A DNA stretch of 64,000 bases, taken from assembly GCA_024226555.1 (NCBI GenBank), contig JAAELO010000399.1:62001-126000 (forward strand), written 5' to 3'. This document shows, piece after piece, positions 7,285-51,444 of this stretch (position 1 is its first letter; the number at the start of each line of letters is the position of its first letter). The notes beneath the pieces are model-generated. The model worked only from the letters and a program-made list of their open reading frames with translations. It ran no database searches and was not told the DNA's origin. This stretch comes from Desulfobacterales bacterium (GTDB lineage Bacteria; Desulfobacterota; Desulfobacteria; Desulfobacterales; JAAELO01). Position numbers and translations under genes: made by a program.

Positions 7285-10200
7285 GAAATTTGAAGATAAG
7301 GTAATAAAGAGATCAGTTAATTTTTATAAAAATGTGGTTAAAGATACTAATATTAGTTTTTTTAAAAGACCAGTTGACGTAAAAGGCCCGTCTGTAATTT
7401 TTTTCCCTGTTTATGAAAATCAGTTAAATTGTGGTCTTACCGGAATAGTTACTTTTAAAAAGTGTGAAAAAAATAATAAAGAATTTGAAATTGAAAAGCT
7501 CAAAAAGTTAGTAACTAAAGCTAAAGAATCCTGTATTAACAGCATAAACGACAATTATGATATTTATTTAAATGGTAAGGACCATTTAGATGAATTTAGT
7601 TTAATAGTTTCAAATAACAAAAATGATGAAGTTTTCAACGATCTTCTTTTGAGAAATTCAAGTCTTGATAGTTTAAAATTATTATTTGAAGATCTTAAGG
7701 ATTTTATAAATAGTGAATCAGATATATTTAAAGATATATCAGGTCAATTATCAAGGGATTCATTTGATATAATCTTTGAAAGAATAGAAACATTAAAAGA
7801 TATTCAATGGGTTTTGGAAGTAGAGATATACAATAATATTCAAAAGATACAGTCATTAATCAATAAAAACAGTGAAATAAGCTTAAGAAATACTGAGGTT
7901 TTCAAAAAAATAAATACAGTTTTAAATAGCATAGACAGATTAGAGGTTAGAGGAAGAGATTCTGCCGGTATTTCTGTCATGTTTATTTTCGAAGCTGATA
8001 CATATCACAGAATTTTAATGAAACTTGAAGATGAAACTCTGGATTCAGTACTTTCAGAGCGTAGAGATCGGATAATCCTAGAGAATAAGACTATCTCAAT
8101 CAGGGATTTTAAAAAAGACGGAGAGAATTTAGTCTCTTTTAATATAACTTATAAGGTTGCTGCCGAAATTGGAAGCCTTGGTGATAATATAAGATATATA
8201 AGGCAAAAAATTAAAAATGATCAAATAATTCAACTCATTGCAAATGAGTCATACAGATACAATACAGTTTCAGCTCACACACGTTGGGCATCGGTTGGAG
8301 CGATTACAGTTCCAAATTGTCATCCGGTTGATAATATGACAACACTTGATAAGAAAAACTCTGGAATTATTCATGTTAGTTTAAATGGTGATATTGATAA
8401 CTATTTGGAACTAAAAGAAGAGTTTGAGAACAATTACGATATAATCCCTGAAGAACTAACAACAGATACAAAGATAATTCCTGTTTTAGTGGAGATGTAT
8501 GTAAAACAGGGGCAATCTGTTGAAAATGCATTTTTAATGGCTGTTAACGATTTTGAAGGTTCCCATGCAATTTCGATGCATACAGATCTTGCACCAGGTA
8601 AACTTTTTCTTGCGCAAAGGGGTAGTGGACAGGCCATATTTATTGGAATATCTGATAATAATTATATGGCTGTTTCTGAAGTGTACGGTCTTGTTGAAGA
8701 AACATCAAAATTTATAAGGGTTGATGGTGAAACAGTAATAGAAGGTAAAAGTGGTCCTGTTCAGGGACAAATCTTTATACTTGATCAGAATTCAGGAGGT
8801 GGTCTCTCCGGAATGGAAGCTATGTATTATGATGGCTCAAAAATTGAATTGACTGAAGATCTGATTAAAAAAACTGATATAAAAACCAGAGATATCGATA
8901 GACAAGGATTTAATCATTATTTTCTAAAAGAAATTTCTGAATCACCAATATCTGTTGAAAAAACAATACAAAATCGTTGGAAAGCAAATAAAGACGATAC
9001 TTTAAAAGTTGTTTTAGATGAATCCCATGTTCCTGAATATATAATCTCAGATATTAAAAGTAAAAAAATCAAAAGAATATTTTTTATGGGGCAGGGAACA
9101 GCAGGAATTGCAGCTCAGGTATGCGCAGACTTAATGAGTTATTATTTAAGCGACAGCTCGATTTTTGTTTCTGCGATTAAATCATCAGAACTTAGTGGTT
9201 TCCATATTAATGAGATGCAGGATTCAAACAGCATGTCAGATACCATTGTCATAGCTATAAGTCAGTCCGGAACTACAACTGATACAAATAGAGCTGTTGA
9301 TATGGTTAAAGAAAAAGGAGCAAGAACTTTAGCTATTGTTAACAGACGTGATTCAGATCTGTCGTTTAAAGTTGATGGGGTTATATATACCAGTAGTGGA
9401 CGAGATCTTGAAATGTCAGTTGCTTCTACAAAAGCATTTTATTCCCAAATAATAGCAGGTTCAATTCTTGGATTGTACGTATCATCAATAACTGAGAAAA
9501 TGTGTCCTCAGATGGTTAATGATGAGATAAAAGAACTTCTGAAGATTCCTGATGTTATGAGAAAAATTCTTTCTATGAAAGATGAAATTAAAGCATCTGC
9601 AATGAATATTGCTGTTAAGAAGACTTATTGGGCTGCCGTTGGAAGTGGTCCTAACAAAGCTTCAGCAGATGAGATAAGAATAAAATTAAGCGAACTTTGC
9701 TATAAAACAATATCAACTGATTATATAGAAGATAAAAAGCATATAGACCTTTCCTCAGAACCATTAATAATAGTATGCGCTGCTGGTACACGAAGGAGTG
9801 TTCTTGGAGATATAATTAAAGATACTGCAATATTTAATGCACATAAAGCAACAACTGTTGTAATAACGGATGAAGGCGAAGATGGTTTTGATTCATACTC
9901 TGAAAATATATTTAAGGTTCCATATTTGAGTGAACATCTGGCTCCCATATCAAATACTTTAGTTGGACATATCTGGGGATATTATGCTGCACTTGCTATT
10001 AATGAAGGTTCAAGGTTCATGTATAAGAAGCGGGAGCAATTTAACAAAACCTTAAACTCTTATGCACATCAGGGACTTAATGTTTACGAAGTTATTCTTG
10101 AGAAAAAATTCAGAGAAGAGATCGCAACATTTTATAAAGAGTTCAGAAAAAAAAGGTTAAATAAAGAATTTCCTCCAATCATGGGATTTAATACTGCTTC

Positions 10201-10993
10201 AGATTTGACTCTTTTATTGAAATATCTTTCCGGAAGACTTCCCGTATCAGATTTTGAGATAGATTTTGCAAAAAAAGGAACACCACTTAATATGCTCGAT
10301 ACTTTTTTTGAGTGTATTGGAGACTCTATAAACTGTATGGCAAGGCCTATTGATGCGATAAAACATCAGGCTAAAACAGTAACTGTTGGTACCAGTAGAA
10401 TTAGTGACCGTTTAGAAGGTTCTTTATTTGAAGTACTTAATCAGCATAATGTTAATATCTCTCAGGTTGTAAACAAAAATGTAATTGTTATGAAGAACCT
10501 TCAGTCAATTATCTCATATATAAAAGGTACTGTTCTTTATAAAGTCACAGGAATAGACGTTTTAGGTGAGCCTGATGATAATACAAAGATAGAAATAATT
10601 GAAAAAACGGGTGAACTTAAAAATGTAGAATCAAGGGTTGAAAATGATAATACATTAAGGGGAACAAAGAAAATTATAGTACGTGAGGGAAATGTTTTTA
10701 TTGGAAAAGGTAAAAAAGATGATAGAATGACCCTCGTAATACCTATAATTTCAAAAAAATCAACAACATATAACGTTATTGAAAATCTTATTTCATTAAA
10801 TGTAGCCCTAAAAAAAGATGATGAAATTCCGCTGTTTAAAAAAGTGAAAGCTCTTGGTGGTAAGCATGAGAGACTAAGAAATATAGTTCAGGAAAGTAGC
10901 CTAAAATGGGATGATTCATTACTAAATAAGATACCTGTTGATGATCTTTTTGGATTATCAGCTGAAAAAGTTGTAGAAAATTATTTAGTTTAA
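7277..10993 (+). CDS. Giant GlmS-like protein: class II glutamine amidotransferase plus two SIS domains with long extensions
   Basis: About 1238 residues, roughly twice the size of GlmS. A class II amidotransferase cysteine motif NCGLTGIV occurs at residue 52 rather than at the N-terminus, so a 51-residue propeptide must be removed if it is catalytic. The further glutaminase motifs RGRDSAGI (near 224), HTRWASVGA (near 334), LNGDIDNY and TDTKIIP follow, with a large insertion between the first two. SIS domain 1 (GQGTAGIAAQ, ISQSGTTTDT, ASTKAFYSQ) and SIS domain 2 (VGSGPNKASADEI, VCAAGT) follow. About 300 C-terminal residues match nothing I recognise. I chose ATG 7277 because GAGGGA lies just upstream; the track start at 7217 lies inside the transpeptidase gene. 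It may make glucosamine-6-phosphate or act as a regulator. Substrate unproven. Confidence 0.8.
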   Translation: MFKKFEDKVIKRSVNFYKNVVKDTNISFFKRPVDVKGPSVIFFPVYENQLNCGLTGIVTFKKCEKNNKEFEIEKLKKLVTKAKESCINSINDNYDIYLNGKDHLDEFSLIVSNNKNDEVFNDLLLRNSSLDSLKLLFEDLKDFINSESDIFKDISGQLSRDSFDIIFERIETLKDIQWVLEVEIYNNIQKIQSLINKNSEISLRNTEVFKKINTVLNSIDRLEVRGRDSAGISVMFIFEADTYHRILMKLEDETLDSVLSERRDRIILENKTISIRDFKKDGENLVSFNITYKVAAEIGSLGDNIRYIRQKIKNDQIIQLIANESYRYNTVSAHTRWASVGAITVPNCHPVDNMTTLDKKNSGIIHVSLNGDIDNYLELKEEFENNYDIIPEELTTDTKIIPVLVEMYVKQGQSVENAFLMAVNDFEGSHAISMHTDLAPGKLFLAQRGSGQAIFIGISDNNYMAVSEVYGLVEETSKFIRVDGETVIEGKSGPVQGQIFILDQNSGGGLSGMEAMYYDGSKIELTEDLIKKTDIKTRDIDRQGFNHYFLKEISESPISVEKTIQNRWKANKDDTLKVVLDESHVPEYIISDIKSKKIKRIFFMGQGTAGIAAQVCADLMSYYLSDSSIFVSAIKSSELSGFHINEMQDSNSMSDTIVIAISQSGTTTDTNRAVDMVKEKGARTLAIVNRRDSDLSFKVDGVIYTSSGRDLEMSVASTKAFYSQIIAGSILGLYVSSITEKMCPQMVNDEIKELLKIPDVMRKILSMKDEIKASAMNIAVKKTYWAAVGSGPNKASADEIRIKLSELCYKTISTDYIEDKKHIDLSSEPLIIVCAAGTRRSVLGDIIKDTAIFNAHKATTVVITDEGEDGFDSYSENIFKVPYLSEHLAPISNTLVGHIWGYYAALAINEGSRFMYKKREQFNKTLNSYAHQGLNVYEVILEKKFREEIATFYKEFRKKRLNKEFPPIMGFNTASDLTLLLKYLSGRLPVSDFEIDFAKKGTPLNMLDTFFECIGDSINCMARPIDAIKHQAKTVTVGTSRISDRLEGSLFEVLNQHNVNISQVVNKNVIVMKNLQSIISYIKGTVLYKVTGIDVLGEPDDNTKIEIIEKTGELKNVESRVENDNTLRGTKKIIVREGNVFIGKGKKDDRMTLVIPIISKKSTTYNVIENLISLNVALKKDDEIPLFKKVKALGGKHERLRNIVQESSLKWDDSLLNKIPVDDLFGLSAEKVVENYLV

Positions 10994-11011
10994 GTCATGA
11001 ATAACAAAAAA

Positions 11012-11032
11012 GGGCTATAATAACTATAGCCC
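11012..11032. terminator. Bidirectional intrinsic terminator
   Basis: A perfect 8 bp stem GGGCTATA / TATAGCCC with a 5 nt loop lies between two convergent genes. A-rich sequence precedes it, so the minus-strand transcript (pyrG) ends in a U-tract; the plus-strand side is followed by CTTTCAATTT. Confidence 0.85.
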
Positions 11033-11051
11033 CTTTCAATTTAAAATATTT

Positions 11052-12692
11052 TTACTTGTTCGAGTTTTTGATAGAAGCTCTAATAAACTCTGTAAAAAGA
11101 GGATGTGGCTTCATTGGTTTTGATTTAAATTCAGGATGGAACTGACAACCTAAAAACCATGGATGGTCTTTTAGTTCAACAATTTCCACAAGGTCTCCCT
11201 TCGGTGATGTTCCACTAATAAAAAGTCCATTTTCAACAAGTGTATCTTTAAAGTCGTTATTAAACTCATAGCGATGTCTGTGTCTTTCTGAAATATCACT
11301 GCTGTTATAAGATTCTTTTGCAAAACTGTCATCTTCAAGAACACAGGGATAAGCACCTAATCTCATTGTTCCGCCATAGTCAGAATTTATATCTCTTGTT
11401 TCAATTCTCTTTTTATGTTCATCATACCATTCATGCATCAAATTTATTACCGGATATTCAGTTTTTTTATCAAATTCAAAACTGTTTGCACCTTTTAAAC
11501 CTGCAATATTTCGAGCAAATTCAATAACAGCAATATGCATACCCAGGCAGATACCAAAGTATGGTACTTTATTTTCCCGTGCATACTTTGCAGCATGAAT
11601 TTTACCCTCAATACCTCGTGATCCAAATCCACCAGGAACAAGAATACCATCAGCATCTTTTAGTTTTTCAGCACAATTTGATTCATCAATAGTTGTTGAG
11701 TCTATGTAAATAAGATTAACTTTGCAACTATGGGGAAAACCACCATGGGTTAGAGCTTCATTTAAGCTCTTGTAAGATTCTGTTAAATCAACATATTTTC
11801 CGACAATTCCAATATTTACTGATTTCTCAGGGTTTTTGAATTTATCAACAACATTTAACCATGTATCTAATCTTGGAGATCTTGTCCAGATATGAAGTAA
11901 TTTGGAAATTATTTCATCAAGTCCTTCCTGCTGGTAAACAAGAGGAACTTCATAAATACACTCAACATCTTTAGCTGTAATAACGGCTTCTGAGCTGACG
12001 TTACAAAATAGTCCAATCTTCTTTTTTAAATCCTGTGAAAGATACCGATCAGTCCTGCATAGTAAGATATCTGGCTGAATACCTATACTTCTAAGTTCTT
12101 TAACACTATGTTGAGTAGGCTTGGTTTTTAATTCACCTGCAGTCGGAATGTATGGAACTAATGTTAGATGAATGTAAACTACATTTTCACGTCCAAGGTC
12201 AGCTCTTAATTGACGGATCGCTTCTAAAAAAGGAAGGCTTTCAATATCGCCTATGGTTCCACCAATCTCAATAAGTGCTATATCAACAGTTCCAGCTAAA
12301 AGCATTATACTGTTTTTAATTTCGTCTGTAATATGAGGTATTACCTGAACAGTACCACCTAAATATTCACCTTTACGCTCTTTTGTTATAACAGAATTAT
12401 ATATTTTTCCTGTAGTAAAGTTATTATTTTTACCAAGGTTAGCATTTGTGAATCTTTCGTAGTGTCCTAAATCAAGATCAGTTTCAGATCCATCGTCGGT
12501 TACAAAAACCTCTCCATGCTGGAAAGGGTTCATTGTACCAGGGTCTACATTTATGTATGGGTCTAGCTTCTGGATAGTAACGCTTAAACCTCTACTTTCC
12601 ATTAAAGCTCCTATTGAAGCCGAAGCAAGTCCTTTTCCAAGAGATGAAACAACACCTCCAGTTACGAATATAAATTTCGTATTATGTCCCAT
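11052..12692 (-). CDS. pyrG: CTP synthase
   Basis: A 546-residue enzyme that aminates UTP to CTP with glutamine. The synthetase domain begins [21 protein letters not shown] and contains [13 protein letters not shown]. The class I glutaminase domain has the nucleophile in FGICLGMH (around residue 380) and the catalytic pair in [11 protein letters not shown]. Length and motifs are canonical. It is transcribed leftward and ends at the bidirectional hairpin. CTP is also the donor for the CMP-nonulosonates of the downstream glycan locus, but the gene is a general housekeeping one. Confidence 0.97.
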
Positions 12693-12781
12693 AACATTTC
12701 CCTTAAATATTTATTGTTTATAGTTCTAAATGAAAAAGATTATTAAAGATTACCTTTTATGACAAATTAAAAGGAATTAAA

Positions 12782-13576
12782 TTAAAATCGTTTATCAAAT
12801 TTATCAATCGCATTTTTTACATCATCATCTTTAATATCGATCTTTTCCTTAACATAAATTTGTTTTAGATATTCAATATCAAAGATGTTCTTTTTAAACT
12901 TTGGGTTTAAGGCTATTTTATCAACCCTAATAATTCTTGTTAAAATATCATTCTCATAAAAATCTATTCTTCTTGGATACCATGTTTTTCTCAGGCGTTT
13001 CCATTCATTATAGTGAATCTCTAACTTGTTAGATTCATTAACAATAATTAGCCTGCTTGGCATCAAACTTTCTTTATCAACCCATAACTGGGAAGCACTA
13101 AAATCATTATTAGCAGCTCCAATAATATATGATAGTCTGTTTTTAAACTGACCAAGGCTTGAAACGAGCATATCTATGCCAATTTTCTTAAGTCTTTTAA
13201 AAAGCTGCGAACTATCTCTAATTAGAAGAATGTCTTTATAATAATCTATTTTAGACTCCTCTTCAGAAATTATTAGAGAATCTAAAATTGTTAATGCAGA
13301 TCCTTTTGAATATATATGAATTCTTGTTTTTTCTTTTGATTTGGTAACAGATCTGAAACGATTTGCAATATTATATTTAAGATTCTGCTTAAAAACCATA
13401 AAACCATTGTCAAAAGTATCATCAAATATTTCAAGATTTTGATAGACCTCAATTCTGTCAGGTTTACCTAATTTCTCTGTAACAAGTTCAAGAAGAAAAG
13501 GTGAATCTGGCAAATATGCCAAAGAAGGACTAATAAACAAAAATAATGTTAGTATCGTAAGAAGATATTTCTTCAT
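12782..13576 (-). CDS. Secreted protein, LolA-like lipoprotein-carrier fold (tentative)
   Basis: A 264-residue protein with a clear signal peptide (MKKYLLTILTLFLFISPSLA, probable cleavage after SLA). The mature part is beta-rich and contains SQLWVDKESLMPSRLIIV followed by a strand with YPRRIDFYEND, the pattern seen in LolA/LolB-like periplasmic proteins where a substrate-facing half-barrel is built from such strands. It has no lipobox Cys. It starts 12 bp after eno on the same strand, so the two are probably cotranscribed. The function is unknown; the LolA-like call is from pattern only. Confidence 0.5.
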   Translation of the reverse strand: MKKYLLTILTLFLFISPSLAYLPDSPFLLELVTEKLGKPDRIEVYQNLEIFDDTFDNGFMVFKQNLKYNIANRFRSVTKSKEKTRIHIYSKGSALTILDSLIISEEESKIDYYKDILLIRDSSQLFKRLKKIGIDMLVSSLGQFKNRLSYIIGAANNDFSASQLWVDKESLMPSRLIIVNESNKLEIHYNEWKRLRKTWYPRRIDFYENDILTRIIRVDKIALNPKFKKNIFDIEYLKQIYVKEKIDIKDDDVKNAIDKFDKRF

Positions 13577-27693: not shown

Positions 27694-28497
27694 ATGCTAA
27701 GTAGTTTAAAGTCAATATTGTCATATGATAAACCATATAGAGTCTACTTATATCAAAAAGCTAAAAACATATACCACAAACTTCTAAAAAAAAATCTACC
27801 CCATAAGGGACATAAATATTACTTGAAATACCAGATAACAAAAGCGATCAATCTGGCAAGTAATCTGGGTCATAAACGAATGAGTATTCTTGAATTTGGA
27901 GTTGCTGGTGGGCAAGGTTTGCTTGAAATTGAGGCTTATTGTAAAGATATAACAAAAAATTTAGACCTAGATATTGAAATTTATGGTTTTGATCTGGAAA
28001 AAGGATTACCTCCCAGTAAAGACTATAGGGATGAACCATATAAGTGGGTTGAAGGTTCATACTCCATGGATATGGAATTGCTGTTAAGCAAAATTAAAAA
28101 ATCAAAACTGATTATCGGTGATGTTAAAAAAACAGTACCTGAGTTCGTTGAAAAATATAATCCGGCTCCAATAGGGTTCATTAACTTCGATTTAGATCTA
28201 TACTGGCCTACTAAATGTGCACTTGAAATTTTTAATGAAGAGGATCTGTACTTTTTACCAAGAGTAGAGTGCTTCTTTGATGATATATTTTTTGAGCATG
28301 CAGGGATTTATCTGGCAATAAATGAATTCAATGCTGAGAATGAGATGAAAAAAATTGGCCAGAATAACCGGACATTGGTTCACAATTTTAATGAAATAAT
28401 GAAATACAGAATGTTTGAGTATCATAAGTTTAATCATGTGGATTACAGCAAAAATAATTTCATGAAGAATAAAGCGGCAGAACTGCCTATAAAGTGA
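27694..28497 (+). CDS. Putative SAM-dependent methyltransferase (TylF/macrocin-like)
   Basis: A 267-residue protein with a class I methyltransferase-like strand-loop (SILEFGVAGGQGLLEIE, about residues 63-79) and an acidic strand IYGFDLEKGLPPS, then FINFDLDLYWPT and FFDDIFF, acidic positions that may hold a metal as in TylF-type sugar O-methyltransferases. Good ribosome site AAAGGGG. Nineteen bp before the dehydroquinate-synthase-like gene, so probably part of that cassette. The target could be a sugar hydroxyl or the cassette product. The family call is tentative. Confidence 0.55.
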   Translation: MLSSLKSILSYDKPYRVYLYQKAKNIYHKLLKKNLPHKGHKYYLKYQITKAINLASNLGHKRMSILEFGVAGGQGLLEIEAYCKDITKNLDLDIEIYGFDLEKGLPPSKDYRDEPYKWVEGSYSMDMELLLSKIKKSKLIIGDVKKTVPEFVEKYNPAPIGFINFDLDLYWPTKCALEIFNEEDLYFLPRVECFFDDIFFEHAGIYLAINEFNAENEMKKIGQNNRTLVHNFNEIMKYRMFEYHKFNHVDYSKNNFMKNKAAELPIK

Positions 28498-28516: not shown

Positions 28517-29650
28517 ATGAACTATATACATAGTAACACAAGAGAGCTGAAAGAAATACAGAAGGTCAATTTTATCATTGATAATTCTGAATCATTTTCA
28601 GGTTTCGAGCAACTTGAAATTATACAGTACCCAAAAATATTTCTGTTTATTGACCGTATTATATACGAAAAATATCGGAATTTTGTTTCTTTATTAAACT
28701 CAATCCATGGAAATATTATAATTACAAAAATTGACTCTGACGAAAGTGAAAAAAATATCAGCAGATATAGTAATTATATTGAAATCCTTTCAAACGGTGC
28801 ATGTAGTAAAAAGGATCTCATATTAGCTGTTGGTGGCGGAGTTATTTTGGATGTTGTTGGATTTCTTTCTTCAACATATATGAGAGGTGTGGATTTTATT
28901 GCAGTTCCAACAACTCTGGTTGGTCAGTCTGATGCATCTACAGCAGGAAAAACTTGTATTAATACAAACGCTTCAAAAAATCTAATCGGTACCTTTTATC
29001 TCCCTAAAGTTGTCTACAACAATACTCATTTTCTAAAAACTTCAACGGATTATTCATTGCGTCAGGGCTTTTCAGAAATATTCAAATATGGATTGCTGTC
29101 ATCCCAGAAACTCATTGATTTACTGGTTGAAGGAGAGGGGTCTCTTTATAATTCTCAAATGAATGAAATACTAAGAATTGTTATGAATGCAAGGTTTGAC
29201 ATCAGAACCAGAAACCCGTTAGCCAGTAATTTAGGGCATACATTCGGGCATGCACTGGAAAAATACTCAGAATATGAAGTCGGTCACGGTGATGCAATTT
29301 CAGCCGGAATAATTATGGCACTGAAGTTTTCACTTGATCAGGGGCTCATATCTGAAAGTATTTTTACAAAAGTTGGTTCATGGATGGATGAAATTGGCTT
29401 AAATACATATATCGAAGCAGATATCAACCCGATAGAATTAGCATCATTAATGTGTAAAGATAAAAAATCCTTTGATGACACAATCGGTCTGGTTCTTGTT
29501 AAGGAAGTAGCTGAACCGCTTACATCAAATGAACAACCGTTTTATTATGCAGATAGAAAACAAATTGAAAACTTCTTAATAAAATACATGAATAATGAGA
29601 ACCATGTAAAAAAAGGATGCTGGAAACAGCTAATGGAAAATGGAAATTAA
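28517..29650 (+). CDS. Divergent 3-dehydroquinate-synthase-like sugar-phosphate cyclase
   Basis: A 377-residue member of the AroB / 2-deoxy-scyllo-inosose synthase / EEVS superfamily. NAD-binding AVGGGVILDVVGFLSSTYMRG and VPTTLVGQSDASTAGKTCIN are present. The three zinc ligands are visible in GFSEIFKYG (Glu), NLGHTFGHALE (His) and VGHGDAISAG (His). Compared with AroB as I know it, the block around the K-x-x-V-V..DE-x-E-x-G-x-R substrate region appears shortened to NARFDIRTRNPLASNLGH, and the catalytic Lys pattern is absent, so dehydroquinate is probably not the product. It overlaps the SDR gene by 11 bp. It may cyclise another ulosonic- or hexose-phosphate substrate. Confidence 0.78.
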   Translation: MNYIHSNTRELKEIQKVNFIIDNSESFSGFEQLEIIQYPKIFLFIDRIIYEKYRNFVSLLNSIHGNIIITKIDSDESEKNISRYSNYIEILSNGACSKKDLILAVGGGVILDVVGFLSSTYMRGVDFIAVPTTLVGQSDASTAGKTCINTNASKNLIGTFYLPKVVYNNTHFLKTSTDYSLRQGFSEIFKYGLLSSQKLIDLLVEGEGSLYNSQMNEILRIVMNARFDIRTRNPLASNLGHTFGHALEKYSEYEVGHGDAISAGIIMALKFSLDQGLISESIFTKVGSWMDEIGLNTYIEADINPIELASLMCKDKKSFDDTIGLVLVKEVAEPLTSNEQPFYYADRKQIENFLIKYMNNENHVKKGCWKQLMENGN

Positions 29651-30401
29651 TTTTAATTCAGAGCATGTGGTTGTCGTAACAGGTGGAACAAGAGGTATCG
29701 GTCTGGCTTTGGTAAAGGATATTCTGGATTCCGGAGCTTCCGTTGCTGTAATTTCAAGAAAATCAACAGGTCTGTTAGATACTGTTTTTTGTGATTGTGA
29801 CTCAAAAAGACTTTTTCTGTATGATTGCGATATAGGCAACTACCATGATGTTGAAAAGACTTTTCATAAAATTGAAAATGATGCCGGTATGATTTCTGGT
29901 TTAATAAATAATGCTGGAGTGAATCCATCACGAAACACAATCATAAATACGAATTTGGAAGACTGGGAACAAACCATATCTGTAAATTTATCAGGAACAT
30001 TCTATTGTTCAAAATTTGCGATTCAATCTATGAAAAAATGTGGAAAGGGTGTAATTATAACAATTTCTTCAATAGCTGGCATTACAGCTATGGAAAAACG
30101 AGCTTCATATTCTGCAAGTAAAGCAGGAGTAATTGGCTTGATGCGATCTATTGCTGCAGATTATTCCTCTAAAAAAATCAGAGCTTATTGTATTTGTCCC
30201 GCGTATATAGAAACAAGTCTTACAAAGCCTTATTTGGAAAGCCTTGATGAACAAGAATACAACATTTTACTTGGAAAACACAGACTTGGTAGTTTGGGTG
30301 AAACGTCAGACATATCAAATCTTGCATTGTTTTTATTAAGTGAATACTCAAAATGGCTGACAGGAGTAGTAATTCCTGTAGATGGAGGTTATTCTGTTTA
30401 A
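29640..30401 (+). CDS. Short-chain dehydrogenase/reductase
   Basis: A 253-residue classical SDR. Cofactor motif VVTGGTRGIGLAL (TGxxxGxG), NNAGVNPSRN, catalytic Ser in ITISSIAGITAM, and YSASKAGVIGLMRS giving Tyr-x-x-x-Lys. The C-terminus GVVIPVDGGYSV is family-typical. An oxidoreductase for a ketone or alcohol; in this cassette it could reduce the ring ketone left by the cyclase. It overlaps the cyclase gene and is followed at once by the aminotransferase gene, so the three are translationally linked. The substrate is unknown. Confidence 0.88.
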   Translation: MEINFNSEHVVVVTGGTRGIGLALVKDILDSGASVAVISRKSTGLLDTVFCDCDSKRLFLYDCDIGNYHDVEKTFHKIENDAGMISGLINNAGVNPSRNTIINTNLEDWEQTISVNLSGTFYCSKFAIQSMKKCGKGVIITISSIAGITAMEKRASYSASKAGVIGLMRSIAADYSSKKIRAYCICPAYIETSLTKPYLESLDEQEYNILLGKHRLGSLGETSDISNLALFLLSEYSKWLTGVVIPVDGGYSV

Positions 30402-30402
30402 T

Positions 30403-31560
30403 ATGAAAAGAAAAAGATTAATGATACCCGGCCCGACAGAAGTAAGCGATGAGGCTCTGGAATGTATGTCACTTCCGATCCAGCCACATTATGGTGACAA
30501 ATGGATGGAAATATATACAGAAACTCAAAAAAAACTTAGAAAAATTTTCAAAACTGAAAATGATATTATTATCTATACAGCAACAGGAAGCGGAGCAATA
30601 GAATCTGCAATATCCTCTGCAATTGATCCCGGTGACAAGGTTCTGATCTGTCACAATGGATACTTCAGTCAACGGTTGATTGATATGGTCCAATTGTGGG
30701 GCGGTGAACCTGTGATACTTGAAGCAAGACTCAACCAGTCATTTGATACGTCAAAAGTTACGGAAACAATCAATCTGTATACAGATTTAAAAATGATAGC
30801 TATGGTTCATGTGGAAACATCTACAGGTGTTGAAAACAACATAAAGCAAATTTGTGACATTGCTAATAAAAACAATATCGTAACTTTGGTTGACTGCGTA
30901 GCAAGCTTAGGAGGCACTGAGTTAAATGTAGACGACTGGCATGTAGATTTTGCCGCTACAGGTAGCCAGAAATGTTTTGAATCACCTGCCGGTTTAAGTT
31001 TTCTTAGTGTGAGTGAAAAAGCCTGGGATGCTGTAAGCCAAAAAAAATCAAAGATCGGGGGATGGTATTTAAACCTTTCCAATATTAGAAAATATCAGAA
31101 GAAATGGTCCCACTGGCACTCACATGGTCCAAATACAGCACCTGTTTCTCTATATCTTGCTCTGAATGTATCTCTGGACAGAATTCTCAAAGAAGGGTTG
31201 GGTGAAAGAATTATGAGGCATGAAAAAATGACCGGAGCCGTTAGAAAAACACTTGAAACCCTTGGATTGAAATTATTTGCAGATGATAAAATTGCAAGTA
31301 AGACACTAACTTCCTTTTTACTTCCTGAAAAAATAAATGCTTTGGATTTTATCGGTCTTATGAGGGAAAAATACGATATTTTTGTATCCGGTGATGTTGG
31401 ATATGTTGATAACCAGCTAATTAGGTTGGGTCATATGGGCATAACAGCTTCTGCAAGTTTTTTAACACCAACTTTCGAAGCTCTTGAAGCATCACTCAAC
31501 AGTTTGAATTTTGAATTTTCTGAAAGAAATGCAAAAAAAATATTTACTGAAAACATTTAA
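30403..31560 (+). CDS. Class V (alanine-glyoxylate/serine-type) aminotransferase
   Basis: About 385 residues. Begins KRLMIPGPTEVSDEAL, the class V aminotransferase opening, followed by ATGSGAIESAISSAI. The PLP lysine is in ATGSQKCFESPAGLSFLS, with the Asp-bearing VDCVASLGGTE upstream. Related to alanine-glyoxylate, serine-pyruvate and 2-aminoethylphosphonate transaminases. I use ATG 30403 (MKRKRL) rather than the track's in-frame upstream codon because it follows the SDR stop directly. In the cassette it probably transfers an amino group to a 2-oxo acid or ketone intermediate; it is not the usual sugar aminotransferase class. Confidence 0.87.
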   Translation: MKRKRLMIPGPTEVSDEALECMSLPIQPHYGDKWMEIYTETQKKLRKIFKTENDIIIYTATGSGAIESAISSAIDPGDKVLICHNGYFSQRLIDMVQLWGGEPVILEARLNQSFDTSKVTETINLYTDLKMIAMVHVETSTGVENNIKQICDIANKNNIVTLVDCVASLGGTELNVDDWHVDFAATGSQKCFESPAGLSFLSVSEKAWDAVSQKKSKIGGWYLNLSNIRKYQKKWSHWHSHGPNTAPVSLYLALNVSLDRILKEGLGERIMRHEKMTGAVRKTLETLGLKLFADDKIASKTLTSFLLPEKINALDFIGLMREKYDIFVSGDVGYVDNQLIRLGHMGITASASFLTPTFEALEASLNSLNFEFSERNAKKIFTENI

Positions 31561-31579
31561 ATCAAATATGAGGAAATGA

Positions 31580-32620
31580 ATGTTAAGAATAGCGGTTAAT
31601 GGATTTGGAAGAATTGGTCGAATTGTTTCACGAATCAATGCTGAGAATAGCAGGTTCAAGCTTATTGCAATAAACGACACCATACCTTCAGTGGATAACA
31701 TGGCCTACCTTTTTAAGTACGACTCCACTTACGGCAAATTCCCCGGAACAGTAACGGTTGATAATGATAAAATGATCATTAACGGGGATGAAGTATCTGT
31801 AACTCATAAGGCAAGTTTGAATGATATACCGTGGGATAGTTATGATGTGGATGTATTAATTGACTCAAGTGGCATCGAACAAAATGTAACTGATGCCAAA
31901 AAGCTGCTTGATGATGGCGTCATAAAAAAATTCATATATACAATGTCATCTGAAAATGTGGATTGTGAAGTGATTGTGGGTGTTAATGATAATATGATTG
32001 AAAGCGGGCAGCGAACATTTTCTGCAAGCATTTGCGATGCAAACGCCCTTGCCCATATTCTTCAGATGATTGATAATGAATATAAAATTCATTCCGGATC
32101 AGTGACCACCCTTCATCCATGGTTGACTTATCAGAATTTGCTTGATGGAGCTGCAAAAGGGATTGCACCAGATCCGAATAAATATACTCCTCCGCATATT
32201 AAAGAAAATTATGGAATGGGAAGAGCTAGTATTGGCGCCATGATACCAAAAAAAACCACAGCTGTTACTTGTACAGAAAAAATATTGACATCCATAAAGG
32301 GAAAATTGCTTTCTCATTCCTATCGTATTCCTACATCAACAGTTTCGATTTCGGATCTTGTTTTAAAAACAGAAAAAAAAGTCACTTCTGAAATTTTAAT
32401 ACCAACAATAGAAGAATGGGCAAAGGAAAATCCATTTGTAAAGCTCAATTATGAACCACTCATTTCATTGGACTACCAGGGTGAAGAGGCCAGTGCCGTT
32501 ATTGATATGCAGTGGCTACAGGTGGAAAATGACCTGATTAAAATAGTTCTCTGGTATGATAACGAGTGGGGTTACAGTTCAAGGGTGCTGGATTTGGTTG
32601 AAAAAGTGATTGAAGTATAA
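31580..32620 (+). CDS. GAPDH-like phosphorylating aldehyde dehydrogenase with divergent active site
   Basis: A 346-residue homologue of glyceraldehyde-3-phosphate / erythrose-4-phosphate dehydrogenase. The NAD motif is VNGFGRIGRI with NDT. The catalytic region reads SASICDANALAH, where GAPDH has SASCTTNCLAP: the Cys and the Asn are kept, but the two Thr that contact phosphate are Asp and Ala. The catalytic His is in TTLHPWLTYQ, and WYDNEWGYSSRV is intact. GAGG 7 nt upstream. A different substrate from glyceraldehyde-3-P is likely. Fourth gene of the cassette; together with the next gene and the aminotransferase it echoes the Epd-PdxB-SerC order of reactions. Confidence 0.8.
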   Translation: MLRIAVNGFGRIGRIVSRINAENSRFKLIAINDTIPSVDNMAYLFKYDSTYGKFPGTVTVDNDKMIINGDEVSVTHKASLNDIPWDSYDVDVLIDSSGIEQNVTDAKKLLDDGVIKKFIYTMSSENVDCEVIVGVNDNMIESGQRTFSASICDANALAHILQMIDNEYKIHSGSVTTLHPWLTYQNLLDGAAKGIAPDPNKYTPPHIKENYGMGRASIGAMIPKKTTAVTCTEKILTSIKGKLLSHSYRIPTSTVSISDLVLKTEKKVTSEILIPTIEEWAKENPFVKLNYEPLISLDYQGEEASAVIDMQWLQVENDLIKIVLWYDNEWGYSSRVLDLVEKVIEV

Positions 32621-32666
32621 AACTGCGTTAAAAACTTGTATCAATTTAAAGGTTCAAAAGCATATT

Positions 32667-33683
32667 ATGGAAAAAGCAAAAATGAATATTCTTATTCCAG
32701 ACAGACTGAAAAAAGATGAAATTGAATTTGAACAGAAGATATTAGGAGACCGGTACTGCATTAAAGCTCCTTGTGCAAAAACGGCATTGGAAATTGATGA
32801 TTTGATTTGGAAGGAAACTGATGCAATTCTCGCATGGCATGAGCTGCAATATACCAGAGAAATTATAAATAAGTTGGATAGATGTAAAATTATTGTTCGT
32901 GTAGGGGTAGGCTTTGACAATGTTGATCTTGCAGCTGCAGGTGAAAAAGGAATTCTTGTTTGCAATGTTCCTGATTATGGAACAAATGATGTTGCGGACC
33001 ATGCAATTGCAATGCTTTTATCTTTTCAAAGAGGTATCCTTTCATATAATCAGGGAGTCAAAAAAAAACACACATGGGGCTGGACTGATGCAGGTCCGTT
33101 AAAAAGAGTTTATGGTTCTGTCCTCGGAATTATTGGAATGGGCAGAATAGGAACTGCCACGGCAATGCGTGCAAAAGCTTTCGGAATGCAGGTTCACTAT
33201 TATGATCCCTATATTCCTGATGGTATGGATAAAGCTCTGGATGTAAAAAAAGTGGATGATTTAAGTGAACTAATTAAATGCTCAGATGTAATTAGTCTGC
33301 ACACTCCCTTAACTGATGAGACATCCGGTATGGTTAATGCTTCATTCCTTAAATCCATGAAAAAGGATAGCATATTAATAAATACTGCAAGAGGTGAAGT
33401 TATTGACTTTGATGCACTATATGATGCATTAAAAAATTCAGAGATCAGGGCAGCAGGATTGGATGTATTACCAATTGAGCCTCCTGACCCGAAGCATCCT
33501 TTAATTAAAGAATGGAGAGATAGTGAAAGCTGGCTGGAAGGTAGACTCCTTATTACTCCCCATTCAGCATTCTTCAACAGGGAGGCCTATGAAGAACTTC
33601 GCTGTAAGTCTGCAATAGTTGCTAAAAATTATTTTGAAGGAAAAACTCCAAAGAATATTGTTAATAAAAATTATTTGAAATAA
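32667..33683 (+). CDS. D-2-hydroxyacid dehydrogenase, CtBP-like
   Basis: About 338 residues of the NAD-dependent D-2-hydroxyacid dehydrogenase family. GIIGMGRIGTATAMRAKAFGM is the Rossmann motif, and the catalytic triad is in NTARGEV (Arg), AAGLDVLPIEPP (Glu) and ITPHSAFF (His). VRVGVGFDNVDLAAAGEKGI..NVPDYGTNDVADHAIAM is typical of the C-terminal-binding-protein-like subgroup. The track's TTG start lies inside the GAPDH-like gene; ATG 32667 or 32682 is more likely. It oxidises or reduces a 2-hydroxy/2-oxo acid, and may link the GAPDH-like and aminotransferase steps. Confidence 0.85.
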   Translation: MEKAKMNILIPDRLKKDEIEFEQKILGDRYCIKAPCAKTALEIDDLIWKETDAILAWHELQYTREIINKLDRCKIIVRVGVGFDNVDLAAAGEKGILVCNVPDYGTNDVADHAIAMLLSFQRGILSYNQGVKKKHTWGWTDAGPLKRVYGSVLGIIGMGRIGTATAMRAKAFGMQVHYYDPYIPDGMDKALDVKKVDDLSELIKCSDVISLHTPLTDETSGMVNASFLKSMKKDSILINTARGEVIDFDALYDALKNSEIRAAGLDVLPIEPPDPKHPLIKEWRDSESWLEGRLLITPHSAFFNREAYEELRCKSAIVAKNYFEGKTPKNIVNKNYLK

Positions 33684-44399: not shown

Positions 44400-45425
44400 A
44401 TGAATAGATCAATACTTGTTACGCTTGGCCCCAGTTCTTTTAATAAAAATAAAGTCGAGCAGATGACAAAACAAAATGTAGCACTTTTTAGGATAAATTT
44501 GTCTCATACTCCAATTGAGGAAGTTGAAAAAAAGATAAAACAAATTCAATCATGGACTAATGTTCCTATTTGCCTGGATAGCGAAGGTGCACAAATACGA
44601 AATCAGAATATGATCGATGAAGAAGTTTCTTACACAAAAGGCGATCGGGTAAAAATTCACTTTGAAGAAGTTATTGGAGATCAACATAATATTTCATTTA
44701 CACCCAATCATGTTGCAAAATTATTTCAAACCGGTGATATTATCAATGTTGATTTCAATTCAGTTTGTTTTTCTGTTGAGTCTTTAAACAAGGACTATTG
44801 TATAGCTTGTGTCAAACGTGGAGGTCATGTCGGCAGTAATAAAGCTGCTGACCTAAATCGTTCAGTGCCGTTAAATCCAATTACAGAAAAAGATAAGGCT
44901 GCAATTGAAATTGGTAGATCTTTGGGTATTATTAATTTTGCTTTATCATTTACAAATAACAAAGAAAATGTCCTGGAAATGAGAAAACTTACAGGTAAGA
45001 AGTCATGCATTATATCAAAAATTGAGAGCTATTCTGGATTACTAAATTTAAATGAAATCATCCAGGAAGCCGATCAAATATTGATCGATAGAGGTGATCT
45101 ATCTCGGCAAGTTCCTATTGTTAAAATACCATTTCTACAAAGACGAATCATTTCTCAAGTCAGATCTCACGGAAAACCGGTTTTCGTTGCCACTAACCTA
45201 CTTGAGTCAATGATTGGAACCCCGACACCGACAAGAGCAGAATTAAATGATGTAGTCAGTACGTTATCAATGGGTGCCAGTGGTTTGGTATTAGCCGCAG
45301 AAACTGCAATAGGAAAATTTCCAGTAGATTCTGTAAAAATTATCAGGGAACTAATTAATCAGTTCGAAAAATGGACATCAAATACCAGTATTGACGAACT
45401 TCTGGAAGATTGTCCTTTTTCTTAA
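44400..45425 (+). CDS. Truncated pyruvate-kinase homologue in the glycan locus
   Basis: A 341-residue homologue of the pyruvate kinase catalytic barrel (usual length about 470). LVTLGPSSFN, RINLSHTP, CLDSEGAQIR (canonical LDTKGPEIR), IISKIESYSGL (catalytic Lys), ILIDRGDLSRQVP and ATNLLESMIGTPTPTRAELNDVVSTLSMGASGLVLAAETAIGKFP are all recognisable, so the active-site residues are largely kept. The C-terminal regulatory domain is absent. Situated between a sulfotransferase and a CysC-like kinase gene, it is unlikely to be the glycolytic enzyme. It might use PEP or ATP in making an activated glycan donor. The role is unknown. Confidence 0.82.
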   Translation: MNRSILVTLGPSSFNKNKVEQMTKQNVALFRINLSHTPIEEVEKKIKQIQSWTNVPICLDSEGAQIRNQNMIDEEVSYTKGDRVKIHFEEVIGDQHNISFTPNHVAKLFQTGDIINVDFNSVCFSVESLNKDYCIACVKRGGHVGSNKAADLNRSVPLNPITEKDKAAIEIGRSLGIINFALSFTNNKENVLEMRKLTGKKSCIISKIESYSGLLNLNEIIQEADQILIDRGDLSRQVPIVKIPFLQRRIISQVRSHGKPVFVATNLLESMIGTPTPTRAELNDVVSTLSMGASGLVLAAETAIGKFPVDSVKIIRELINQFEKWTSNTSIDELLEDCPFS

Positions 45426-45443
45426 AAAAGGAAAATTGAAAAT

Positions 45444-45956
45444 ATGAACAAACCTGTATTGTGGCTCATGGGACCAACTTCAAGTGGGAAAACAACAATT
45501 TCCAAAGCATTTTTAGCTAAACTAACACAAACACAAACACCAGTTATTCATTATGATGGCGATGAAATACGAAATTTTTTTGGTTCGGGGCATGGATTTA
45601 CATCTGATGATAGGTTTATGGTGATTAAAACACTGGTACACTTAGCAAAAAAAGCATCTTGTTCAGGTTTAAATACAATTGTTTCAGCTCTTACGGCTGA
45701 GCCTGAGGCAAGAATGTATGTATCCTCACAAATAGGTAATCTACATACCATTTTGGTAAAAAGTAACATTTCGGAATGTGTAAAAAGGGATCCAAAAGGA
45801 TTATATAAAAAAGCAATTTCCGGGGAGATCACAACTCTTATTGGATATAATTCGGAATACATAATGCCTATTTCTCCAAATCTTATTCTTGATACGAATA
45901 AGAATGAAATACAAGATTCTGTCGATGAACTTGAAAATTATTTTCTAAAGTTATAG
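45444..45956 (+). CDS. Adenylylsulfate-kinase-like protein (CysC-like)
   Basis: A 170-residue P-loop kinase. Walker A GPTSSGKTT, then VIHYDGDEIRNFF, and the family hallmark VKRDPKGLYKKA. CysC makes PAPS from APS. Next to a sulfotransferase, PAPS supply is the simplest role. However, a CysC homologue in the Campylobacter jejuni capsule locus (Cj1415) acts instead as a CDP-amidate kinase, so the substrate here should not be taken for granted. 18 bp after the pyruvate-kinase-like gene, so the two are cotranscribed. Confidence 0.8.
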   Translation: MNKPVLWLMGPTSSGKTTISKAFLAKLTQTQTPVIHYDGDEIRNFFGSGHGFTSDDRFMVIKTLVHLAKKASCSGLNTIVSALTAEPEARMYVSSQIGNLHTILVKSNISECVKRDPKGLYKKAISGEITTLIGYNSEYIMPISPNLILDTNKNEIQDSVDELENYFLKL

Positions 45957-48899: not shown

Positions 48900-50057
48900 A
48901 TGAATATAAAATATTGTAAAAAGTGTATAATGCCGGAGACAAAACCGGACTTACATATAGATGAAAATGGGGTTTGTAATGCATGCCGCTACTTTGATCA
49001 ACGTGTAGATGTTGACTGGGATCAACGTGAATTAGAATTCAAAAGCATTCTGGACAGATATCGGTCAAAAGACGGGAACAAGCATGACTGCATTATTCCT
49101 GTAAGTGGAGGAAAAGATAGCACATATATGACATTAAAAATGCTTGAATACGGAATGAATCCCTTATGTGTTACTTCAACTACCTGCAAACTTTCAGATA
49201 TTGGGCGAAGAAATATTGAAAATATAAAAAAATTAGGGGTCGATTATATTGAGGTATCCACAAATCCAGTTGTAAGAAGTAGAATTAATAAACTGACTCT
49301 AAAACAAGTTGGGGATATCTCATGGGCAGAACATTTAACCATTTTTACGATTCCGATCAGGATATCAGTTCAGATGAATATTCCATTGATTATTTGGGGT
49401 GAAAATTCTCAGAATGAAAACGGTGGTCCTGCAGCTGATGCAGAAAACAATACCCTGAGCCGTAACTGGCTTGAAGAATTTGGAGGTTTGCTGGGACTTC
49501 GGGTTTCAGACCTGGTAGGGCAGGAAGGAATCCGTAAACAGGATCTGATCTTATACAACTATCCTTCCAACGAGGAACTTGAGAAAGTTGGTGTAACCGG
49601 GTTGTTTCTTGGATATTACATCCCCTGGGATGGTCATAATAATGCCTTGATTGCTCAGGCGTACGGTTTTGAATCCTATCCCAAACAGGTGGAAGGATCC
49701 ATTATTAACTATGAAAATCTGGACAACCTCCAGATGCGGATACATGATTATTTCAAATATCTTAAATTCGGTTTTGACCGCTCAACTGACTGGGCTTGCT
49801 GGCACATCCGTAGGGGAAGGTTGACCCGTGGTGAGGGAGTTGAACTTGCTAAACAAAATGGGGGAAGATTTCCCTGGACATATCTTGGTAAACCAATTGA
49901 AGAGATCATGGATGATATTGATATGACAATGGAAGAGTTCAACAGGATTTGCGATCAGTTCACAAATAAAAAATTATTTAAAAGTGATAAACGCGGAAAT
50001 CTCATCAAAAACAAAGATGGTGATTTGATTAAAATCAACTATGACAACGTGGAATAA
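48900..50057 (+). CDS. N-acetyl sugar amidotransferase (WbpG/PseA-like)
   Basis: A 385-residue PP-loop enzyme. N-terminal cysteines CKKCIMP...CNACRYF suggest a zinc-binding module. The ATP loop is VSGGKDSTYMTLKM, and GENSQNENGGPAADAENNT and SHITWAEHL-like (DISWAEHLTIF) blocks follow. This family converts an N-acetyl group to an acetamidino group, as in WbpG of Pseudomonas O-antigen and PseA/LegX-type nonulosonate modification. The next two genes, HisH- and HisF-like, supply ammonia, which supports the call. GAGG upstream. Confidence 0.9.
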   Translation: MNIKYCKKCIMPETKPDLHIDENGVCNACRYFDQRVDVDWDQRELEFKSILDRYRSKDGNKHDCIIPVSGGKDSTYMTLKMLEYGMNPLCVTSTTCKLSDIGRRNIENIKKLGVDYIEVSTNPVVRSRINKLTLKQVGDISWAEHLTIFTIPIRISVQMNIPLIIWGENSQNENGGPAADAENNTLSRNWLEEFGGLLGLRVSDLVGQEGIRKQDLILYNYPSNEELEKVGVTGLFLGYYIPWDGHNNALIAQAYGFESYPKQVEGSIINYENLDNLQMRIHDYFKYLKFGFDRSTDWACWHIRRGRLTRGEGVELAKQNGGRFPWTYLGKPIEEIMDDIDMTMEEFNRICDQFTNKKLFKSDKRGNLIKNKDGDLIKINYDNVE

Positions 50058-50068
50058 TCAATATTAAA

Positions 50069-50686
50069 ATGAATAATGTTATTGTTATCGACTATGATAT
50101 GGGGAATACGGATTCAATACTCCGGGCAATTGAAGAGTGCGGTGGAAATCCGGTATTGTCTAATAAAAAATCTGATTTAGATGATGCAAGTCATATAATA
50201 TTACCGGGTGTGGGTTCTTTCCAGAAAGCAATGGAAAATATAAATTCCCTTGAGATCATAGACTCCCTTGAAGAACAGATATTCACGTTTAAAGTACCCT
50301 TCCTTGGTATATGTCTTGGGATGCAGCTTATGGCCACTCAAGGAGCAGAAAACGGTGTTACCAATGGTTTAAACTGGATCAACGGCAACGTCGTTAAATT
50401 TCAACAGACTGAAAAGAAAGAACGTATTCCGCATATAGGATGGAATGAAATCCATTTAAAGGAACCTAATCCCTTGTTTGAAGGAATTGAGTCTGGTAAA
50501 GACTTTTACTTTGTTAACAGCTTTCATTTCGAGTGTACGGACAAATCAAATGAGTTGTCTAAAACACCTTACTGCGGGGAGTTCGTGTCCGCTGTAAACA
50601 AGGATAATCTATATGGAGTCCAGTTCCACCCTGAAAAAAGCCAGAAGTTCGGTTTTAAAATCATAAAAAATTTTCTTGCGTTATAA
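50069..50686 (+). CDS. hisH: HisH-like glutaminase subunit for sugar amidation
   Basis: A 205-residue class I glutaminase: IIDYDMGN-like start (VIDYDMGNTDSIL), LPGVGSFQKAME, nucleophile Cys in LGICLGMQ, and the His-Glu pair in QFHPEKSQ. Similar to imidazole glycerol phosphate synthase HisH, but without other histidine genes nearby and placed between a WbpG-like and a HisF-like gene, so it is the WbpG-partner version (HisH2). It releases ammonia from glutamine and passes it through the HisF-like partner. Spacing of 11 bp to the upstream gene and 2 bp to the next. Confidence 0.92.
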   Translation: MNNVIVIDYDMGNTDSILRAIEECGGNPVLSNKKSDLDDASHIILPGVGSFQKAMENINSLEIIDSLEEQIFTFKVPFLGICLGMQLMATQGAENGVTNGLNWINGNVVKFQQTEKKERIPHIGWNEIHLKEPNPLFEGIESGKDFYFVNSFHFECTDKSNELSKTPYCGEFVSAVNKDNLYGVQFHPEKSQKFGFKIIKNFLAL

Positions 50687-50688
50687 AT

Positions 50689-51444
50689 ATGCTTAAACTT
50701 CGAATTATACCCACATTATTATATAAAAACATGACTCTGGTAAAAGGGGTTGGTTTTGATAGCTGGCGTAGAGTCGGCAGTGTTATTCAGGCAATAAAAG
50801 TCTACAACATGAGAATGGTAGATGAACTCATTTTTGTAGACATTACAGCTACCCGTGAAAACAGGAAACCGGATTTCGAACTGGTTGATGATTTTGCTGA
50901 TGAATGCTTCATGCCGCTAACTGTCGGAGGGGGAGTAAATGATATTGAAGATGTTCGGAGATTGCTACAGGTAGGTGCGGACAAAGTCGCAATTAATTCT
51001 TCAGCGATAACTAATCCTGGTCTTGTTAAAGAAGCTGCTTGTGAATTCGGTTCACAATGTGTTGTAATCAGCATTGACTGCAAAAAGAATAATGGAAAAT
51101 ATGAGGTTTATTCTCACTCCGGTACTCAACCCACAGGTCTTGATATGGTAGAACACGCAGTTGAAATGGAAATATCAGGTGCTGGTGAAATTTTGCTGAC
51201 TTCGATTGAACTGGATGGAACCATGAAAGGTTATGATCTTGAGATGATAGATCAGGTTGTAAAAGCTGTTAATATTCCGGTAATAGCATCCGGAGGAGCT
51301 GGAAACTATGAGCATATGTACGAACTGGTCAGTAAAACAAATGTGGATGCACTGGCATCAGCAAGTATATATCATTTCACAGAACAAACTCCGCTGGAAG
51401 CAAAGTTGTTCTTAAAAAAGAAAGGTATAAATGTCAGATTATAA
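50689..51444 (+). CDS. hisF: HisF-like ammonia-channel subunit for sugar amidation
   Basis: A 251-residue TIM barrel like HisF. IPTLLYKNMTLVKG replaces the usual IPCLDVKDGRVVKG, so the catalytic Asp11 of the cyclase is lost (Leu), while the second Asp in VVISIDCKK remains. LTVGGGVNDIEDVRRLLQVGADKVAINSSA and IPVIASGGAGNYEHM are conserved. This fits a HisF2 that only relays ammonia to the sugar amidotransferase. The gene ends overlapping the next one by 14 bp. Confidence 0.9.
   Translation: MLKLRIIPTLLYKNMTLVKGVGFDSWRRVGSVIQAIKVYNMRMVDELIFVDITATRENRKPDFELVDDFADECFMPLTVGGGVNDIEDVRRLLQVGADKVAINSSAITNPGLVKEAACEFGSQCVVISIDCKKNNGKYEVYSHSGTQPTGLDMVEHAVEMEISGAGEILLTSIELDGTMKGYDLEMIDQVVKAVNIPVIASGGAGNYEHMYELVSKTNVDALASASIYHFTEQTPLEAKLFLKKKGINVRL

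Follow-up and report, generated by a model that had tools for sequence, protein, structure and literature searches.

A lineage-scattered gene module pairing an AroB-like cyclase with a GAPDH-like dehydrogenase, and its five-gene version in a Desulfobacterales glycan locus

The C7-cyclitol pathways of validamycin and acarbose (ValA/AcbC, ValD, ValC/AcbM/AcbU, the AcbL dehydrogenase and ValB/AcbR) are among the described systems closest to a five-gene cassette of a Desulfobacterales bacterium (GenBank assembly GCA_024226555.1), which lies in a stretch of 64,000 nucleotides (contig JAAELO010000399.1, positions 62,001 to 126,000; hereafter, the window). As in those pathways, a cyclase is clustered with a short-chain dehydrogenase/reductase (SDR), and related loci in other genomes add a VOC protein, a kinase and a nucleotidyltransferase; unlike in them, the cyclase belongs to another clade, the kinases are of glycerate-kinase type, CDP-alcohol phosphotransferases and a GAPDH-like protein are present, and the setting is mostly that of glycan loci. 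The family TIGR04425 (AroB-related putative sugar phosphate phospholyase, cyclizing) also comprises AroB relatives in carbohydrate loci, with an SDR and an aminotransferase adjoining in viral contigs, but it forms a separate branch of the tree and no GAPDH-like gene is among the viral neighbours listed. The ebo operon resembles the cassette in that a new sugar phosphate cyclase clade, EboD, defines an uncharacterised operon found across phyla; its partners, however, are UbiA-like, TIM-barrel and phosphodiesterase-like proteins, and no GAPDH-like gene is described for it (PMC5133447). The Epd–PdxB–SerC route to 4-phosphohydroxythreonine shares with the cassette the broad superfamilies of GAPDH, 2-hydroxyacid dehydrogenase and class V aminotransferase, whereas here all three proteins fail the respective cut-offs, the phosphate-site residues of the GAPDH-like protein are replaced, and its gene travels with the cyclase.

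On balance, the cassette is probably a local version of a rare, lineage-scattered module whose product, a small building block other than a sugar, would be destined for surface glycans; it would be of the cyclitol or hydroxy/amino acid type and most likely carbocyclic. The cassette consists of five forward-strand open reading frames (ORFs), all open, in the same direction and with every checked catalytic motif present, which encode an AroB-like sugar phosphate cyclase of a new clade (28517..29650, 377 aa; PF01761 and PF24621), a classical SDR oxidoreductase (29640..30401, 253 aa; PF13561), a class V aminotransferase of the BhcA/alanine-glyoxylate/PhnW type (30403..31560; PF00266), a GAPDH-like dehydrogenase with remodelled phosphate-site residues (31580..32620, 346 aa; PF00044 and PF02800) and a CtBP-like D-2-hydroxyacid dehydrogenase (32667..33683; PF02826 and PF00389). 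The aminotransferase probably starts at the ATG at 30403, after a GGAGG, and the ATG at 32667 is a more likely start of the CtBP-like gene than a possible TTG at 32610, from which the frame is also open. With these starts the intergenic spacings are -11, +1, +19 and +46 bp, the first being an 11-bp overlap of the AroB-like and SDR genes; the five intact, co-directional genes of a preliminary description are thus borne out, and its spacings (an 11-bp overlap, 2, 20 and about 46 bp) hold to within a base. The G+C content of the genes is 0.33–0.375, the window mean being 0.322. The Pfam domains DHQ_synthase, classical SDR, Aminotran_5, both of GAPDH and both of 2-Hacid_dh were confirmed, and none of the five proteins exceeds a family cut-off among the NCBIfam models shown. 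No description of a pathway for this gene combination was found in the open-access literature searched. The earlier view is supported in that the enzymes form a set tied to surface glycans, include a cyclase branch and are apparently undescribed.

The AroB-like protein scores 243.9 bits against the AroB model TIGR01357 (cut-off 305) and 197.1 bits against TIGR04425 (cut-off 400), below both. It shares 37–44% identity with nine homologues, and its clade of ten members is monophyletic (support 100/100), apart from ordinary AroB and TIGR04425; a profile of the family gives its full-length members 556–624 bits and other AroB relatives at most 194. The Zn ligands, NAD fold, and phosphate and catalytic residues place the protein in the sugar phosphate cyclase superfamily, since all dehydroquinate synthase (DHQS) motifs for Zn, phosphate and catalysis are retained, with equivalents of R130, D146, K152, N162, E194, K197, N268, H271, H275, H287 and K356. 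In all ten members K250 is replaced by Arg and R264 is gone through a six-residue loop deletion. Signatures of the clade are TAGKTC[IL]N and RQGxSE. In DHQS structures K250 and R264 bind the carboxylate of 3-deoxy-D-arabino-heptulosonate 7-phosphate (DAHP), so that the substrate of the AroB-like enzyme likely lacks this group. The AlphaFold2 model (pLDDT 86.8) matches the DHQS/DOIS/ValA fold, as expected, and does not settle the substrate.

The GAPDH-like protein reaches 239.9 bits against TIGR01534 (GAPDH-I; cut-off 367) and 200.1 bits against the Epd model PRK13535 (cut-off 539). Its clade, which is monophyletic against ordinary GAPDH, comprises 12 members, including one on the phage contig L104 and a solo gene in the genome G024; members score 480–571 bits and ordinary GAPDH of the same genomes at most 309. 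Cys149 and His176 are present in all 12, Thr208 and Arg231 are also retained, and the phosphate-site residues are replaced throughout the clade, Ser148 by Ile or Thr, Thr150 by Asp, Thr179 by Leu and Thr181 by Tyr or Phe (S148I, T150D, T179L and T181Y in the window). Salmonella Epd, compared alongside, retains S148 and T150 but not T179 and T181. Replacement of the latter pair is therefore not in itself unique to the clade, whereas the Asp beside the Cys and the HPWL motif are; S[IT]CD and HPWL are the clade's signatures. The changed residues argue against erythrose-4-phosphate as substrate. The AlphaFold2 model (pLDDT 83.8) matches the GAPDH/Epd fold, as expected, and leaves the substrate unsettled. 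The solo gene of G024 (locus L007, 2751–3815) lies beside an enoyl-CoA-hydratase-like gene.

The core of the cassette recurs in distant lineages. A scan of 85,462 genomes, which used exact peptide patterns of the AroB-like protein alone and therefore under-samples the family, yielded eight loci, each from a different high-level lineage of bacteria or archaea, titled Deltaproteobacteria (Myxococcota in tree placement), Gemmatimonadaceae, Woesearchaeota, Nitrospinia, Peregrinibacteria, Gammaproteobacteria, Woesebacteria and Solobacterium. Within 9 kb of AroB, every one of the eight has a GAPDH-like gene that belongs to the window's clade, and an SDR is nearby in seven, the exception being L014, on an 8.7-kb contig. 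Another locus, L006 of the genome G048, was found by searching relatives for the GAPDH-like gene and reads GAPDH, 2-phosphoglycerate-kinase-like (2PGK-like) kinase, AroB, SDR, nucleotidyltransferase and CDP-alcohol phosphotransferase. With the window, ten loci could be compared, and the GAPDH-like gene is clustered with the AroB-like gene in all of them. Outside the window, the GAPDH-like clade was met in only two (G048 and G024) of about 1,150 genomes sampled (58 and 395, partly overlapping, and about 700 further), the 700 yielding no member beyond genomes already known as carriers. Since this clade is so rare and yet stands beside the cyclase in 8/8 loci found through AroB alone, the pairing is more than chance. 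Searches of plasmids, phages and E. coli genomes by tblastn with the AroB-like and GAPDH-like proteins returned no clade members. The recurrence put forward in the preliminary description therefore holds for the core of AroB, GAPDH and SDR, and not for the exact order AroB–SDR–aminotransferase–GAPDH–CtBP, which was found in no other genome scanned.

The SDR of the window is 46% identical to those adjoining AroB in L006 and L011. In the window the core has two local additions, the CtBP-like dehydrogenase and the class V aminotransferase: no relatives of either were seen in the neighbourhood DNA of the other nine loci and, used as independent markers in 231 genomes of the same class, they returned only the window's own copies, while in the viral contigs scanned CtBP led to the contig of L104 only and the aminotransferase to none. 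CtBP alone is uninformative, because those of its plasmid relatives that were inspected sit in TRAP-transporter/GMC-oxidoreductase operons. The best NCBIfam model of the aminotransferase is BhcA (220.7 bits, cut-off 650), SerC giving 32.6 bits (cut-off 253), and its relatives in the PDB are alanine-glyoxylate/serine-pyruvate enzymes; the CtBP-like protein scores 89.8 bits against PdxB (cut-off 434), and its PDB relatives are CtBP1/2.

Related loci carry accessory genes of several kinds. A VOC (glyoxalase-I-like) gene stands directly behind AroB in six of them (L012, L013, L014, L015, L017 and L018), and five encode kinases of three groups with no mutual similarity by BLAST, namely a MOFRL-type glycerate 2-kinase (L013, L017), a PF02595 glycerate kinase (L015, L018) and the 2-phosphoglycerate-kinase-like protein of L006. 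Nucleotidyltransferases occur in L006, L011, L013, L015, L017 and L018, and CDP-alcohol phosphotransferases in three to four loci, clearly in L006 (43.7 versus 22 bits), marginally in L011 (22.1 versus 22); in L015 the protein stays below the thresholds of NCBIfam models, and in L017 a short match by BLAST hints at one. The full set of cyclase, VOC protein, kinase, nucleotidyltransferase and SDR is found in L013, L015, L017 and L018 and partially elsewhere, the window having the cyclase and SDR only. In L016 (gammaproteobacterial metagenome-assembled genome, 8112–18167), SDR, AroB and GAPDH stand without other accessory genes beside what, by eye, are a MATE-type transporter, a dioxygenase and a long multidomain ORF resembling a non-ribosomal peptide synthetase (NRPS), which runs past the contig end and so is no guide to the product; this trio may feed a peptide natural product.

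From the observed gene content, clustering, folds and motifs kept or lost, we infer a course of reactions, their order and a product. The AroB-like enzyme would take a sugar phosphate, without recognising a carboxylate as in DAHP, through oxidation with bound NAD, phosphate elimination and ring closure, and the SDR would then reduce or oxidise a ring alcohol or ketone. The GAPDH-like enzyme would act on an aldehyde by means of Cys149 and His176, lacking the customary contacts to phosphate, and would probably yield a carboxylate. Two features suggest that this is a 2-hydroxy acid: the kinases resemble three glycerate/phosphoglycerate families, and a 2-hydroxyacid dehydrogenase and an aminotransferase of glyoxylate type are encoded in the window. 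Only in the window would this acid be converted to a 2-oxo acid, by the CtBP-like enzyme, and then to an amino acid, by the aminotransferase; the transferase encoded next could attach the amino acid. Many other loci likely differ at this point, their product being phosphorylated by the glycerate-kinase-type enzyme and nucleotide-activated, with transfer by a CDP-alcohol phosphotransferase in some. Because the reaction of sugar phosphate cyclases eliminates the phosphate, nucleotide activation must be preceded by a kinase step, and in the acarbose pathway kinases do act between the two (AcbC, AcbM/AcbU, AcbR; PMC9200736). ValD of validamycin synthesis is a VOC-superfamily epimerase, according to a title cited in PMC7081202. 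By analogy, the loci with cyclase, VOC protein, kinase, SDR and nucleotidyltransferase plausibly work like a C7-cyclitol route.

Several observations weigh against this proposal. Members of the GAPDH-like clade are also met where the cyclase is not: a search of G024 gave no member of the AroB-like clade, and no AroB-like cyclase was detected on L104. The latter, an 83-kb viral contig, carried the one clade member in a scan of viral contigs by GAPDH pattern that otherwise gave mostly ordinary GAPDH, and its cluster at 9001–12850 reads GAPDH-like protein, small HAD-like protein (by eye), cytidylyltransferase, HpaI aldolase and CtBP-like protein, the last being 46% identical to that of the window. 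Because L104 carries a clade member without a detected cyclase, other routes can make use of the GAPDH-like enzyme, and any restriction of it to cyclase products becomes less credible. The SDRs of the loci are not one orthologous group, and none lies on the short contig of L014. As the window has neither a VOC gene nor glycerate kinases, a scan of the contig flanks giving weak general matches only, its route may differ from that of related loci. Most loci come from metagenome-assembled genomes, and several neighbour genes were named by eye. We know of no cyclase-based pathway with a GAPDH relative, nor of a precedent for the GAPDH-like step.

Other explanations of the cassette differ in how much of this evidence they can accommodate. 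The class V aminotransferase might act on a ring ketone from the AroB-like enzyme to give an aminocyclitol, with the GAPDH-like and CtBP-like enzymes elsewhere in the route. AroB, SDR and aminotransferase genes are contiguous in the window, and the viral contigs L019, L021 and L022 likewise place a cytidylyltransferase, an SDR, an AroB-related cyclase and an aminotransferase (class III in L019 and L022) close together; the window's aminotransferase, however, is closer to 2-oxo-acid/glyoxylate enzymes (BhcA, alanine-glyoxylate) than to the ring-ketone types of the DegT family, and the GAPDH is left unexplained, which makes an aminocyclitol unlikely. It is rather more doubtful that no ring is formed at all, the AroB-like enzyme doing no more than eliminate the phosphate of a short aldose phosphate, for example erythrose-4-phosphate, the SDR reducing a methyl ketone and the GAPDH-like enzyme oxidising the aldehyde, to give a deoxy glycerate homologue that is phosphorylated elsewhere and aminated to an amino acid here. 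The glycerate and phosphoglycerate kinases, the 2-hydroxyacid dehydrogenase and the glyoxylate-type aminotransferase all indicate a glycerate-like acid, and the GAPDH-like enzyme is without phosphate-site residues, but the AroB-like protein retains the DHQS catalytic residues. To our knowledge, where phosphate-eliminating enzymes of the AroB superfamily have been characterised, they close a ring, which counts against an open-chain product.

The preliminary description, which took Epd–PdxB–SerC as its organising idea, set cyclase and SDR apart from the GAPDH-like, CtBP-like and aminotransferase genes, and two unrelated pathways might accordingly adjoin here, the second analogous to that route. 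L104, with three genes between a GAPDH-like and a CtBP-like gene and no detected cyclase, is in keeping with such a split; it is nevertheless improbable, given that the GAPDH-like gene is linked to the cyclase in 10/10 loci, that the aminotransferase sits between SDR and GAPDH, and that no score comes near the cut-offs for Epd, PdxB or SerC. Well-known housekeeping enzymes are homologous to each of the proteins, yet decayed or redundant copies of such enzymes are scarcely credible and already largely refuted, as the frames are intact, the catalytic residues conserved and family-specific motifs invariant across distant lineages. Since a second, housekeeping AroB is encoded elsewhere in the same genome, next to a gene judged by eye to encode DAHP synthase, the cassette genes are not housekeeping copies, in agreement with the preliminary description.

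The cassette is embedded in a glycan locus. The capsule-type transferase reported 3' of it is confirmed by PF05159 (33722..35266, forward strand, E 2.4e-8) and is a possible user of its product. A putative S-adenosylmethionine (SAM) methyltransferase gene (27694..28497, forward strand), 19 bp 5' of the AroB-like gene, may be a member of the cassette; its earlier TylF-like label could not be confirmed, as the protein shows a SAM-binding-like motif only and matches neither Pfam nor NCBIfam models at E<=0.001. Pseudaminic acid genes lie in the same locus (PseC by its cut-off; PseF, PseG, PseH and PseI by eye), where genes for HisH- and HisF-like proteins, so named by eye, come after that of a PseA-like amidotransferase (48900–51444). 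At 44400–45956, a 341-aa pyruvate-kinase barrel protein matches models of full-length pyruvate kinase over their N-terminal part only, and directly 3' of it an APS-kinase-like protein falls below family cut-offs, an odd pair within a glycan locus. In the IMG/VR viral contigs L019, L021 and L022, at about 6150–11740, the order is cytidylyltransferase, SDR, AroB-related cyclase and aminotransferase, with a small ORF that is SIS/phosphoheptose-isomerase-like by eye. The cyclases of L019 and L022 exceed the TIGR04425 cut-off, members in viral contigs scoring 407–428 bits, and the cassette looks like a phage-borne aminocyclitol-type glycan pathway.

It is possible, and is proposed here only tentatively, that a new type of pathway is shared by bacteria and archaea, in which a cyclase of new specificity is coupled to a GAPDH-fold dehydrogenase of a non-phosphorylated aldehyde, and surface glycans receive the resulting carbocyclic hydroxy acid, or, in the window, an amino acid. 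Two folds seen as housekeeping, those of DHQ synthase and GAPDH, are joined in one recurrent specialised cassette, and their catalytic-residue signatures would flag mis-annotated 'AroB' and 'GAPDH' genes. The cassette points to a new surface-glycan building block and, in one gammaproteobacterial metagenome-assembled genome, possibly to one of an NRPS product.

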